From positions 1-37,283 of the forward strand of contig JANQKE010000081.1 of NCBI GenBank assembly GCA_028281265.1: a stretch of 37,283 nucleotides of DNA, written 5' to 3'. Numbering within the stretch: the stretch's first letter is position 1; the number at the start of each line of letters is the position of its first letter. The position numbers were made by a program, and so were the translations under genes. Shown in pieces: positions 1-17,203 of the stretch. The DNA is from Alphaproteobacteria bacterium. Its GTDB lineage: Bacteria > Pseudomonadota > Alphaproteobacteria > DSM-16000 > Inquilinaceae. Under the pieces are notes generated by a model. That model was not told the DNA's origin and searched no databases. It saw only the letters and a program-made list of their open reading frames with translations.

Positions 1-97
1 TCAACCTGCGTTCAGATGGACTCATCTGAACGCAGATAAGTTGATCTATTTCAAAGATTTAGAGCATCCTGCGTCCGTTAGGACGCAGGATGCTCTA
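1..97 (-). repeat. Double-hairpin intergenic repeat, copy A (cut by the window edge)
   Basis: Read on the minus strand, hairpin H2 (96-61) has a perfect 16-bp stem with a four-base loop, arms AGAGCATCCTGCGTCC and GGACGCAGGATGCTCT. A 14-base linker follows, then hairpin H1 (46-1) with 13-bp arms CTGCGTTCAGATG/CATCTGAACGCAG, loop AGTC, and an outer GTTGA/TCAAC stem with a four-base TTAT bulge. Related copies lie at 11464-11562 and 17050-17203. The TAG stop of the chaC-like gene overlaps the outer edge of H2. On the plus strand a frame from base 1 reads STCVQMDSSERR and stops at TAA (37-39), so a plus-strand gene left of the window could end here. A REP/MITE-like element or a structured 3' end are both possible. 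Confidence 0.85.
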
Positions 98-745
98 GCC
101 GGGCCGGTGGCTCCGGACCCGTGCGGCCAGGGCGTGCAGCGGCGCGTCTTCGATGCCCAGCGCGTCGAGATGATCGACCGTGTTGAGCAGATACTCGGCA
201 TTCGGCCCGCGCGCGCCTTCGGCGTTCAGGATCATCGTCAGGGTCCGGTCCGGGTCCAGGCCGCCGCAATACTGCCGATGCCGGCGGTCGGCGACGAAGC
301 AGCAGGCCTTCACCCGGCGGCCGTCGGCCAGGTCGAGCGGCAGCAGGCGCGGCCGGTAGACGCCGGTGACCATCTCCCGCCCCCACAGATAGGCCAGCAC
401 CTCGGTGGCGTCGCGGGGGGCCACTTCGAACGCCACGCCGTGGCAGGAGCCGCCATGGTCCAGGCCCAGCACCAGCCCCGGCTTCTCCGGCGTGCCGCGA
501 TAGCGGTGGGAGTAGACGCAGAACCGCCGGTGGTAGCCGTGCAGCAGCGCCATCCGGCGGTCGGTATGCGGGAACTCCGGATTCCACATCAGCGAGCCGT
601 AGCCGAACACCCAGAGCGGCCGGTCGGGGTCGAGCGGCAGGTTGGGGTGCCGCCACGGGGCGTCGGGGGGATCGTTCGGATCGGCCGGCGGGCCGTCGTG
701 CGGATCCTGGTCCGTCGGGCGGGTCGGGTCGGTGGACGCAGTCAT
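95..745 (-). CDS. chaC: ChaC-like gamma-glutamylcyclotransferase
   Basis: The 216-residue protein belongs to the ChaC family, which cleaves glutathione (gamma-Glu-Cys-Gly) in the cytosol to 5-oxoproline and Cys-Gly. The substrate-binding motif FGYGSLMW sits near residues 47-54 after a disordered Asp/Pro-rich leader. GVAFEV and the LWGRE segment, which carries the expected catalytic glutamate, follow, and the family GVYRP motif comes next. Length fits bacterial ChaC proteins, allowing for the roughly 40-residue low-complexity N-terminus. The ATG at 745 has a GGGGA purine stretch just upstream. The stop codon TAG is formed at the edge of repeat copy A. Family assignment is firm; activity on glutathione rather than another gamma-glutamyl compound is inferred. 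Confidence 0.88.
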   Translation of the reverse strand: MTASTDPTRPTDQDPHDGPPADPNDPPDAPWRHPNLPLDPDRPLWVFGYGSLMWNPEFPHTDRRMALLHGYHRRFCVYSHRYRGTPEKPGLVLGLDHGGSCHGVAFEVAPRDATEVLAYLWGREMVTGVYRPRLLPLDLADGRRVKACCFVADRRHRQYCGGLDPDRTLTMILNAEGARGPNAEYLLNTVDHLDALGIEDAPLHALAARVRSHRPG

Positions 746-10686: not shown

Positions 10687-11466
10687 ATGAGCAAGAAACG
10701 CGACCGGCCGCTGACCGCCGCCGAACGGGCGTTGTGGCGGCATGTCTCCCAGTCGGTCGCCCCCCTGCCCGGCGGGCGGGCGGAACCGCCGTCGCCTTTG
10801 CGGGACGAGGGGGCGCCCGCCCGCGCTCCGACCGCTCCCGCACCCCCGGCCGGCATCGCCGCCCCGGCCGCGGCCACCGCTCCGGTCGCGCTCAACAGCG
10901 CCGCCGATAGGCCCGGCGCCCCTGGGGAGGCCTCGGCGCGCCGGTCCGAACCGCTGGCGCCCCCGCCGGCGGGGGAGCGGATGGCCGATCTGCTGGCCGG
11001 CCGGGCCCCGTCCCCGCCGGCCGATCCGGCGGCGAGACCGCCCAAGCGCAAGAAGCCGTTCCTGATGCCGAGCCGGCCGGCCGCCGGCGGGGACGGCGCC
11101 GCGCCCCCGCTCACCGAGGCGTCCTGGGCCGGGGTCGACCGCCGCACCGCCGACCGCCTGCGCCGGGGCAAGCTGCCGGTCGACGTCACCCTCGACCTGC
11201 ACGGCCACGGCCGGGTCGAGGCGATGACGGCCCTGTTCGGGGCGATCGAGGCGGCCGCGGCGTGCGGGCAGCGCAAGCTCCTGGTCATCACCGGCAAGGG
11301 CACCTTCGCCCCGCCCGGGGCGGATCGCGGGATGCTGAAGAAGCAATTGCCGCGCTGGCTCAACGACCCCCGGGTGCGCGACCGGGTCCTGGCCTTCAGC
11401 CAGGCCCGGCCGGAGCATGGCGGCGCCGGCGCGTTCTACGTCCTGCTGCGCCGCAAGCGCGGATAG
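10687..11466 (+). CDS. Smr (small MutS-related) domain protein
   Basis: A 259-residue protein with an N-terminal TAAERALWRHVSQSV helix and a long Pro/Ala-rich disordered linker (about residues 25-130). The C-terminal Smr domain (about 160-255) carries the signature LDLHGHG, then LLVITGKGTF and the terminal GGAGAFYVLLRRKRG. Smr domains are DNA nicking endonuclease or ribosome-rescue nuclease modules; in Alphaproteobacteria this architecture is widespread and uncharacterised. ATG 10687 is chosen over an in-frame TTG six bases earlier. The TAG stop (11464-11466) is shared with the edge of repeat copy B. Confidence 0.88.
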   Translation: MSKKRDRPLTAAERALWRHVSQSVAPLPGGRAEPPSPLRDEGAPARAPTAPAPPAGIAAPAAATAPVALNSAADRPGAPGEASARRSEPLAPPPAGERMADLLAGRAPSPPADPAARPPKRKKPFLMPSRPAAGGDGAAPPLTEASWAGVDRRTADRLRRGKLPVDVTLDLHGHGRVEAMTALFGAIEAAAACGQRKLLVITGKGTFAPPGADRGMLKKQLPRWLNDPRVRDRVLAFSQARPEHGGAGAFYVLLRRKRG

Positions 11467-11562
11467 AGCCTCCGGCGTCCGGACGGACGCCGGAGGCTCT
11501 CCCTCCTTGAAGTCGATCACCCTACCGGCGTTCGGATGAGTCCGTCTGAACGCAGGTCGATC
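11464..11562 (+). repeat. Double-hairpin intergenic repeat, copy B (GC-rich version)
   Basis: H2 (11465-11500) has perfect 16-bp arms AGAGCCTCCGGCGTCC/GGACGCCGGAGGCTCT with loop GGAC. The 14-base linker keeps TTGAA. H1 (about 11515-11562) has arms 11526-11538 and 11543-11555 with loop AGTC. Compared with copy A, H2 carries two compensatory pair changes (A-T to C-G, T-A to G-C). H1 carries two changes that become G.U pairs in plus-sense RNA and one that breaks a pair. The repeat sits between the convergent Smr and MFS genes and includes the stop codons of both; the last 13 codons of the MFS gene lie inside it. Confidence 0.88.
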
Positions 11563-12763
11563 GAGAGGCGGGCCGGGACAGAACGAACGCGATCGCCAGG
11601 GCGATGACCGTCAGCCCCGCCGCACCGGCGGCCAGGCCGACGGCGGCGGGGCCGTACAGCGCCTGCAGGGCGGCCGCCGGGAACGGCACGATCAGGAACG
11701 CCAGCCACGGGATGCAGAACCGCAGGCGGAAGCCGTGGCTGACATTGTCGGCCGGCAGCCGGGTCTGCAGCAGCATCGCAAAGCGCAGATCGAACCATGG
11801 CGCCCCCGCCCCGGCGCACAAGGCGCACACGCCCCACACCCACAGCGGCGCGTCCAGCGCCGCCGCCGCCGAGACGGCGGCCACCCCGGCGATGAACAGG
11901 CCATGCCCGGCCAGGGCCACGAGCCTCCCCGGCGGTGCACGCCGGCTGCCGGCATAGAGGTTGGCGGCGATGTTGCTGACCGAATAGGTCGCCACCAGCC
12001 CGCCATAGGCGGCCGCGGCCGCCGCCGTGCCCAGGCGGGCATCGAGCAGCCAGGCCCAGCCCAGCAGCATCCCGCCGACCCAGACGAGGTTGGCCATGAT
12101 GCTGACCAGGGTGTTGAGGGCGAGATCCGGGTCGGCGGCGATCCGCCGGGCCGTCAGGATCAAGGGCTGCAGGCTCGGCCGTGCGGCCCTGCCGGCCGCC
12201 GCCGGCGGGGCCGCCAGCCCGCGGACCGCCAGGATCGGCGGGATCGCCAGCGCGATCAGGGCCGCCGTCACCGGCGCCAGCATCGCCAGCGGCAGCGCCA
12301 ACAGGGCCAGTGAGGCGAAGCCGGGGCCGGCGAACCGGGCGATCCGGTGGGTGCCGTCGATCAGCGCGTTGATCTGCAGGAGTTCGCGCTCCGTCCGGGC
12401 GAGGCGGGGCAGGGCCCCCACCACGGTCGGCTCGAACTGGGCCAGGGCGACTGCCGCCAGCATCACCACGCCCAGCAGCACCGGCACGGGCGGGGCGGTG
12501 GCGAGGGCTGCGGCACACAGGCTCATCACGCCCAGGCTCGCGACCATCAGCGGTCTGGCCGGTACCCGCAGGCCCGCGCCCAACAGGAGGGCCACCAGCA
12601 TCGTCACCCCCTGTACCGTGGCCAGGGAGGCCGAGGCGGCGGGGCTGATCGCCACCGCCATCCACAAGGCGGTCAGCTTGAACAGCTCCAGCGCCAGCGA
12701 GGTGGCGGCCGCCCCGCCATAGAGCAGGGCCAGCGGGCGGTGGGTGAGGGCGGCGAACGGCAT
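11522..12763 (-). CDS. MFS-type transporter with a repeat-encoded C-terminal tail
   Basis: A 413-residue, very hydrophobic protein with 10-12 predicted helices (for example LLYGGAAATSLALELFKLTALWM, GVTMLVALLLGAGL, GVVMLAAVALAQF). It fits the MFS_3/exporter class, with a mid-protein loop ARTERELLQINALIDGTHRIARFAGP typical of such transporters. The substrate is unknown. ATG 12763 has a strong GGAGGG ribosome site. It is divergent from a LysR regulator (107-base gap), which suggests control by that regulator. The last 13 residues, RSTCVQTDSSERR, are encoded by repeat copy B, and its TAG stop lies in the repeat bulge region. Confidence 0.82.
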   Translation of the reverse strand: MPFAALTHRPLALLYGGAAATSLALELFKLTALWMAVAISPAASASLATVQGVTMLVALLLGAGLRVPARPLMVASLGVMSLCAAALATAPPVPVLLGVVMLAAVALAQFEPTVVGALPRLARTERELLQINALIDGTHRIARFAGPGFASLALLALPLAMLAPVTAALIALAIPPILAVRGLAAPPAAAGRAARPSLQPLILTARRIAADPDLALNTLVSIMANLVWVGGMLLGWAWLLDARLGTAAAAAAYGGLVATYSVSNIAANLYAGSRRAPPGRLVALAGHGLFIAGVAAVSAAAALDAPLWVWGVCALCAGAGAPWFDLRFAMLLQTRLPADNVSHGFRLRFCIPWLAFLIVPFPAAALQALYGPAAVGLAAGAAGLTVIALAIAFVLSRPASRSTCVQTDSSERR

Positions 12764-16092: not shown

Positions 16093-17045
16093 TCCCGGCA
16101 ACCGTCCCGACCCGGCCCGCCGCCGCCTGGCACCTGACCGTCTCGGTACCGAAACGGATTGCCTTGGCGATCGAAGCGGCGCTGGCCGATCGTTTCGAGG
16201 CCGTATCCGCCTTCGAGATCGACGGGCCGTCGGGGCTGTGGCGGGTCGACGCCTATGCCGGAGCCGAGCCGGACCGGGCCGCCCTCGGCATCGCGATGGC
16301 GCTGGCCGCCCGGGCGGCGGGTGCCCTGGCCGAGCCGGCCTGGACCTTGGAGGCACTACCGCCGACCGACTGGCTGGCGGAGACCTATGCCCGGTTCCCG
16401 CCGATCCGCCTCGGCCGGTTCTTCATCCATGGCAGCCATGTCGGCGAGCCGGTGCCGCCATCGGCCATCGGTCTGATGATCGATGCCGCGACGGCCTTCG
16501 GCTCCGGCGAGCATCCGACCACGGCCGGCTGTCTGGCGGCGGTGGAGGACTACGCCAAGACGAAGGCACCGGGCGGGCGCGCCCGGGCGCTGGATATGGG
16601 GGCGGGCACCGGCATCCTCGCCATTGCGGTGGCGAAACAACTGCGCTGGCCGGTGCTGGCGGCTGATATCGATCCCGAATCGGTCCGGGTCGGCCGGGTC
16701 AATGCCCGGGCCAACCGGGTGGCCGGCCGGGTCCGGGTGATCCCGTCGGCCGGCTACGCCGCACCGGAGATCGCCCGCACCGGGCCGTTCGACCTGGTCC
16801 TGGCCAACATCCTGGCCCGGCCCCTGGTGGCCATGGCCAAGGACCTGCGCCGCGCGCTCGGACCCGGCGGCACGGCGGTCCTGTCGGGGCTGTTGACCCG
16901 GCAGGAGCCGATGGTGCTGTCCGCCCATCGCCTGCAGGGTCTGGTGCTGGCCAGGCGCTGGCGCCGCGGCGCCTGGTCCACCCTGGTCCTGCGCCGCCCT
17001 CGACGTCCCGGACGCGCGGAAAGGACCGGCCTGCGGAAGCGTTGA
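16089..17045 (+). CDS. prmA: Ribosomal protein L11 methyltransferase
   Basis: A 318-residue PrmA, an S-adenosylmethionine-dependent enzyme that trimethylates ribosomal protein L11. The N-terminal L11-recognition domain (1-110) is short and divergent. The catalytic domain holds AFGSGEHPTTAGCL, the SAM loop LDMGAGTGILAIA, the acidic residue of AADIDPESV, and the NPPY-type motif as LANILARPL (about 238-246). Length is near the family's usual 290-310. Start ATG overlaps the GNAT stop. Downstream, the gene runs into repeat copy C, whose first hairpin lies seven bases after the TGA. Confidence 0.92.
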   Translation: MIPATVPTRPAAAWHLTVSVPKRIALAIEAALADRFEAVSAFEIDGPSGLWRVDAYAGAEPDRAALGIAMALAARAAGALAEPAWTLEALPPTDWLAETYARFPPIRLGRFFIHGSHVGEPVPPSAIGLMIDAATAFGSGEHPTTAGCLAAVEDYAKTKAPGGRARALDMGAGTGILAIAVAKQLRWPVLAADIDPESVRVGRVNARANRVAGRVRVIPSAGYAAPEIARTGPFDLVLANILARPLVAMAKDLRRALGPGGTAVLSGLLTRQEPMVLSAHRLQGLVLARRWRRGAWSTLVLRRPRRPGRAERTGLRKR

Positions 17046-17049
17046 GCTG

Positions 17050-17203
17050 GAGCATCTCATCTGCGTTCAGATGAGGCCATCTGACCGCAGGTTGATCTAG
17101 AGCATCCTTCGTCCTAACGGACGCAGATAAGATGCTCTAAATCTTTGAAATAGATCAACTTATCTACGTTCAGATGAGTCCATCTGAACGCAGGTTGATC
17201 TAG
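17050..17203 (+). repeat. Double-hairpin intergenic repeat, copy C (extended, three hairpins)
   Basis: Order: an H1-like hairpin (arms 17061-17073 and 17078-17090, one mismatch, then GTTGATC), H2 (17099-17138), the conserved 14-base linker identical to copy A, then H1 (17153-17200). H2 has one mismatch and an inserted ATAA between GGACGCAG and GATGCTCT, as in H1 of copy A, so it looks recombined between the two hairpin types. H1 differs from copy A by one base (CTACG for CTGCG). The locus lies between convergent prmA and the SIMPL-like gene. The orientation matches copy B. Confidence 0.85.

Follow-up and report, generated by a model that had tools for sequence, protein, structure and literature searches.

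How do genes come to stop exactly at the edge of a repetitive element? In the window, that is, the whole stretch of 37,283 nucleotides analysed here, genes end on a TAG formed at the border of a palindromic repeat, and a preliminary description took this to mean that the repeat supplies stop codons together with a conserved tail peptide and may act as a stop-and-fold cassette for convergent genes. That description is partly supported: its observation was largely right but its interpretation has to be reversed. Very probably, the repeat is a non-autonomous mobile element of two hairpins (a CIR-like MITE) which duplicates TA, was inserted into NTAG stop codons that already existed, and is presumably moved by an IS630-family transposase.

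The element is approximately 100 bp long and consists of two hairpins, H1 with a GANTC loop and H2, joined by a linker. Copy 1 (1..98, + strand) has the order H1-linker-H2, its left end (C-TA-GA) being lost to the start of the contig. The inner palindrome of H1 (6..35) carries the loop GACTC, a form of the GANTC found in this position in most copies; the H2 hairpin (60..98) is flanked by TA at 60-61 and 96-97 and has the right boundary C-TA-G. Over its 98 bp this copy is 100% identical to several copies on other contigs, and the energy of its predicted fold is -60.6 kcal/mol (z -11.8). Copy 2 (11464..11560, - strand), situated between convergent Smr and MFS genes, is older and diverged, and its left TA has decayed to TC. 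Copy 3 (17097..17200, - strand) is again full, with H2 in the TTATC form, and is abutted by an H1-only unit (17037..17096, - strand); the two have a single CTAG in common, the result of either a mosaic or a tandem insertion. This compound copy (17037-17198) suggests that each TA-flanked hairpin may behave as a unit. Two H1 units in direct tandem are found in a Roseomonas MAG (L066:4073-4161). No Rfam family matched within the window at gathering score.

The consensus of 75 fully bounded copies reads C-TA-GATCAAC-CTGCGTTCAGATG-GACT-CATCTGAACGCAG-(ATAA)-GTTGATC-TA-TTTCAAAGATT in its 5′ part and TA-GAGCATC-(TTAT)-CTGCGTCC-GTTA-GGACGCAG-GATGCTC-TA-G in its 3′ part. Paired stem positions show 50 double (compensatory) changes versus a mean of 13 and a maximum of 22 in shuffles, which ignore the relatedness of the copies. 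The left boundary is C-TA(G) in 65 of 80 copies; at the right boundary TA-G (51 copies) prevails over TA-A and TA-T (5 each). As the right outer base following an intact TA is A or T instead of G in about 16%, the target is looser than CTAG. H1 is present in at least 330 copies in the genome of 4.3 Mb, while the reversed pattern used as a control gave none. Many contigs start or end inside the element (among them C4, C21, C69, C110, C124, C149, C153, and C190), which makes it a likely main cause of the fragmentation of the assembly.

Two genes of the window stop on TAG at the H2 edge, and the coordinates confirm what had been noted for them: the ChaC-like gene (95..745, - strand) has its stop (95-97) on the right edge of copy 1, the Smr-domain gene (10687..11466, + strand) its own (ATAG, 11464-11466) on the right edge of copy 2. 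Both encoded domains are complete. The ChaC-like protein matches positions 1-175 of the 176 of Pfam ChaC, with the domain ending at residue 212 of 216, and homologues have their predicted end at positions 214-227 versus 216 in the window gene; the Smr protein covers Pfam Smr from 1 to 77 of 77. The MFS-like gene (11522..12763, - strand) was correctly described as ending in the tail-frame peptide: it enters H1 in the AGA frame, continues for 13 codons and ends RSTCVQTDSSERR-TAG. It is an exception, the only off-frame gene among 15 that reach the left edge of a fully bounded copy; the other 14 stop exactly on NTAG.

These figures derive from a 0.99-Mb sample, taken as stretches mostly from contigs known to carry copies, in which genes were called with our own phase-specific fifth-order Markov model trained on 0.99 Mb of the genome; the gene models thus come from a simple purpose-made caller, not from a published one. 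The sample contains 113 element places, 76 of which have genes on both sides; the rest lie at contig edges or have no called neighbour. Of the placed copies, 31 lie between convergent, 39 between tandem, and 6 between divergent genes, and none of the 76 is inside a gene. Convergent gaps thus make up 31 of 76 for the element versus 88 of 655 among element-free gene gaps (odds ratio 4.4, Fisher P 4e-8). At the right edge, 18 of 21 genes stop exactly on NTAG and 3 inside; one exception, on C75, is due to a mis-set boundary, its true edge being CTAG. Counting the latter, about 33 of 37 edges are on TAG, versus one third expected with random phase (P 2.5e-12; with n = 37 the test is slightly stricter than with the 36 edges tabulated). 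Tabulated against gene ends in this way, the placement of the element proved to be non-random, with no intragenic copies. In other genera, the same edge stops were seen at roughly two dozen edges, and one copy in G003 has convergent genes ending on both of its edges.

Such a pattern could also arise if insertion were unspecific and selection afterwards left survivors only where an immediate stop resulted. Purging clearly operates, as the absence of copies inside genes of the sample attests. However, either of the two remaining frames, when entered at the right edge, generally encounters a stop within approximately 6-16 codons and should be tolerated, and yet 19 of 21 genes at this edge alone are on TAG (P 8e-8); since the other frames stop so soon as well, the bias is hard to ascribe to avoidance of extended proteins. 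Unspecific insertion also fits poorly with the outer bases, which are strongly C and G, and with the empty sites discussed below, where TAG precedes insertion. This scenario is quite unlikely. For the genes stopping at the left edge, the right outer base is G or A in 13 of 14 cases; with either base, the reconstructed empty site reads a stop.

Could the element instead donate a stop and a tail peptide near gene ends, truncating or capping the genes, and be kept as a stop-and-fold cassette? TAG at both edges, a readable frame of 13 codons and the enrichment between convergent genes would all be in line with this. The frame itself is real insofar as the three window copies read S-T-C-V-Q-(M/T)-D-S-S-E-R-R-stop, as had been reported, but it does not behave as coding sequence. 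The variability is 0.080, 0.066, and 0.083 at codon positions 1, 2 and 3, without a third-position excess, and the stop follows after exactly 13 codons in 49 of 75 copies, the others running on where the ATAA bulge is missing. A coding tail peptide was rejected on these two grounds. The frame, and with it the peptide, is a by-product of the conserved H1 palindrome. A donated stop is further contradicted by the non-random phase (33 of 37 edges on TAG), by the tail frame being free of codon-position constraint, and by the completeness of the ChaC and Smr domains. Together with the comparison of element-free relatives, this makes a stop-donating role highly improbable.

The order of stop and insertion can be read from empty sites, for which the sequences on either side were fused, leaving out the element and one copy of the TA, and searched against 15 genomes of the genus holding R. 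ponticola and Falsiroseomonas. A multi-locus query with 7 of 13 prepared loci (L259 minus a short piece) gave clear junctions at L254, L263, and L283 and no clear one at L255, L259, L260, or L265. At L100, in R. ponticola, the element sits in a CTAG which two convergent genes share as overlapping stops; the corresponding empty sites, ungapped over 603 bp, read ...GTCGCCTAGCCGTA... in L204 and ...GTCGCCTAGCCATA... in L205 (CTAG), with TTAG in L206. The empty site of L077 (L184) is likewise ungapped over 603 bp and has TGA at the same codon. For L263, one relative (L293) has the identical C-terminus HILA-TAG (CTAG), another (L297) the same but with TGA; for L283, the gene strand of both L290 and L291 reads GTAG at the corresponding position; for L254, L292 has CTAG one codon off and other relatives have TGA. 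In sum, element-free relatives possess a stop at the same place or at most one codon away at all five loci, which all belong to hosts other than the window genome; four of these loci have one or more relatives with TAG, and several relatives have TGA instead. The ungapped empty sites hold a single TA, which demonstrates its duplication.

The notion that the repeat supplies the stop codon is thereby contradicted, as relatives without the element already stop there and the ChaC and Smr domains are complete. Because element-free relatives already carry a stop at this place, the stop is taken to be the insertion target. The genomic comparison shows that it predates insertion where related elements in other hosts are concerned; the window genome itself is consistent with this. 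There, four edge genes were compared with their homologues in G003, which is distant (median RBH identity 52%) and beyond the reach of alignment at the DNA level: unaligned C-terminal residues amount to 0-0, 3-1, 0-0, and 8-8, that is, without C-terminal loss at the edge genes, and the G003 homologues stop on GTAG, CTGA, CTGA, and TTGA, respectively. This, too, speaks against genes truncated or capped by the element.

Within the window genome CTAG is rare. The sample holds 58 CTAG stop codons, of which 33 (57%) are at an element; outside the element, CTAG occurs 39-40 times in coding sequences, 25 times as a stop, and 119-121 times in intergenic DNA, and the share of intergenic CTAGs at an element is estimated to be about half of the 57%. 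Of the 25 CTAG stops outside the element, eight lie in or beside other repeats. A second CTAG-bounded palindromic repeat, CTAGAGCGTTTTCAGGGA, with tens of matches, abuts at least six CTAG stops outside the element (G000; C27:8483, C53:95, C75:18323, C163:31525, C185:250, C222:95). It has no evident kinship to the two-hairpin element but shows the same placement, which points to the choice of target rather than to a property of one sequence. That the element is found where genes end, and often between convergent ones, is accordingly put down to target choice, CTAG being rare in coding DNA, and to the loss of intragenic copies. The convergent gene-end placement given in the preliminary description stands (odds ratio 4.4, see above); the stop-supplying cassette role it was assigned is not supported.

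As to the mobiliser, IS630-family DDE_3 fragments are found at contig ends of the window genome, where copies of IS630 exist as assembly fragments, one of them ending ...CACAACGCTC-TA-G (GCTC-TA-G). IS630 elements in Siccirubricoccus and Falsiroseomonas (L224, L227, L237) have GAGC inverted ends placed exactly in CTAG, with C-TA and TA-G as flanks. Judged from these termini, of which only 4-6 bases are common to the element and IS630, an IS630-family transposase likely moves the element in trans, and members of this family are candidate mobilisers. A further IS630-family fragment ends exactly at the CTAG of a third palindromic repeat, GAGTGGGATGACATTAGGGGCGATCGCATTTGCGATCGC (L142:180-300). REP/REPIN sequences of RAYT origin were also considered and rejected, as a Y1 transposase is absent: no match to RAYT (Y1_Tnp, PF01797) was obtained in the genome, with five controls positive.

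Another scenario, compatible with insertion into existing stops, is that the host has adapted the element as a bidirectional terminator, a stabiliser of mRNA 3′-ends or a beacon for CcrM methylation, which selection then keeps. The hairpins are very stable, their stems covary, and they are located at gene ends; furthermore, GANTC is present in the H1 loop of 54 of the 71 scored copies of the genome itself, which also has a gene for a RAMA-domain (CcrM-like) DNA methyltransferase (L336; G000:C68:36259-36561) that, judged by its domain, could methylate GANTC in the H1 loop. On the other hand, GANTC is kept in no more than 6 of the 12 diverged copies, and no intrinsic terminator (a GC stem followed by a T-run) was detected at 11300-11800, i.e., at the locus of copy 2, the one locus searched, which gives the proposed folding function no support there. 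The unrelated second CTAG-bounded family is placed alike, as target choice predicts, and most genomes of the family lack the element; at the threshold used, it was found in 2 of 16 others (G003, G006). Adaptation by the host as the reason for its maintenance is unlikely. Outside the family, the H1 palindrome and the CTAG-bounded two-hairpin plan are widespread in Acetobacteraceae (Roseomonas, Siccirubricoccus, Falsiroseomonas, Roseococcus, and Roseicella), a host range which, drawn from the matches listed, is a lower bound. In these relatives the outer stems differ (GAGCAGATC, GAGCAATAT), and the GANTC loop is in most cases unchanged. No Caulobacter locus was among the matches listed in the H1 scan.

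Insertion thus proceeds as follows. The element occupies by preference NTAG stop codons, mostly CTAG, and duplicates TA on insertion, and as its first and last bases complete TAG in both orientations, the stop is rebuilt for both flanking genes. With both stops rebuilt, the proteins stay unchanged and the element can spread through a compact genome without altering any of them; an IS630-family transposase (TA-duplicating, CTAG-targeting, GAGC-ended) would be supplied in trans. It is likely, in general terms, that the element belongs to a transposon family for which the TAG stop is the practical target, with regeneration in both directions even at a single CTAG common to convergent genes, and that other CTAG-bounded families of the genome behave likewise. 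If TAG-stop targeting holds true, gene ends are a safe landing place. In annotation, edges of the element should not be read as gene truncation or as stops supplied by the repeat.

Several known systems bear comparison. The autonomous IS630 elements L224, L227, and L237 resemble the element in duplicating TA within CTAG and in their termini GAGC...GCTC; they are approximately 1 kb long and encode a transposase, whereas the element is non-coding. The Rickettsia palindromic elements (RPE) are alphaproteobacterial palindromic repeats of about 100 bp with a readable frame, which insert in frame inside genes. The present element, in contrast, has no copies inside genes of the sample and its frame lacks a coding signature; membership in the RPE was ruled out for the absence of both intragenic copies and a codon-position signature.

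RUP of S. pneumoniae, a MITE related to IS630-Spn1, is described as approximately 107 bp long, duplicating TA, enriched between convergent genes, and with IS630 as its proposed mobiliser (PMC2229807, PMC3049150). The element shares the TA duplication, the candidate mobiliser and the convergent-gene enrichment; unlike those of the element, the terminal repeats of RUP pair with each other, RUP has no GANTC, and targeting of stop codons is not described in the passages on RUP in these sources. BOX, also of S. pneumoniae, encodes the extreme 3′ end and the stop of 36 genes, without strong evidence of truncation versus orthologues (PMC3049150). It differs in its modular structure, and the passages on BOX in that source describe neither a target-site explanation nor an empty site with a pre-existing stop. 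Nevertheless, the BOX gene ends reported there come closest to a precedent for genes that end at the element, and insertion into stop codons may bear on other small repeats, BOX among them.

Among known systems, the element is closest to the CIR elements. These CcrM-associated intergenic repeats of Caulobacter (Chen and Shapiro 2003) are described as about 110 bp long, alphaproteobacterial, and never intragenic, with two inverted-repeat arms and a linker, GANTC at the terminal loop of one arm and TA termini, without a terminal inverted repeat spanning the element; target duplication is given there as "?" and the mechanism of mobility is listed as unknown (PMC2229807). By its anatomy as described in that source, that is, two arms and a linker, a GANTC loop, TA ends and an intergenic location, the present element is CIR-like. 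The copy number of CIR is far below the at least 330 of the element. A search of the available literature for reports of a CIR-like element or another bacterial small repeat inserting into existing stop codons found none. What sets the element apart from the CIR as described is that duplication of TA upon insertion into NTAG stops is shown here and a link to IS630 is proposed; for the family studied here, insertion into existing stops with TA duplication thus offers a simple, testable answer to how CIR-type repeats move and why small repeats accumulate at the 3′ ends of genes.
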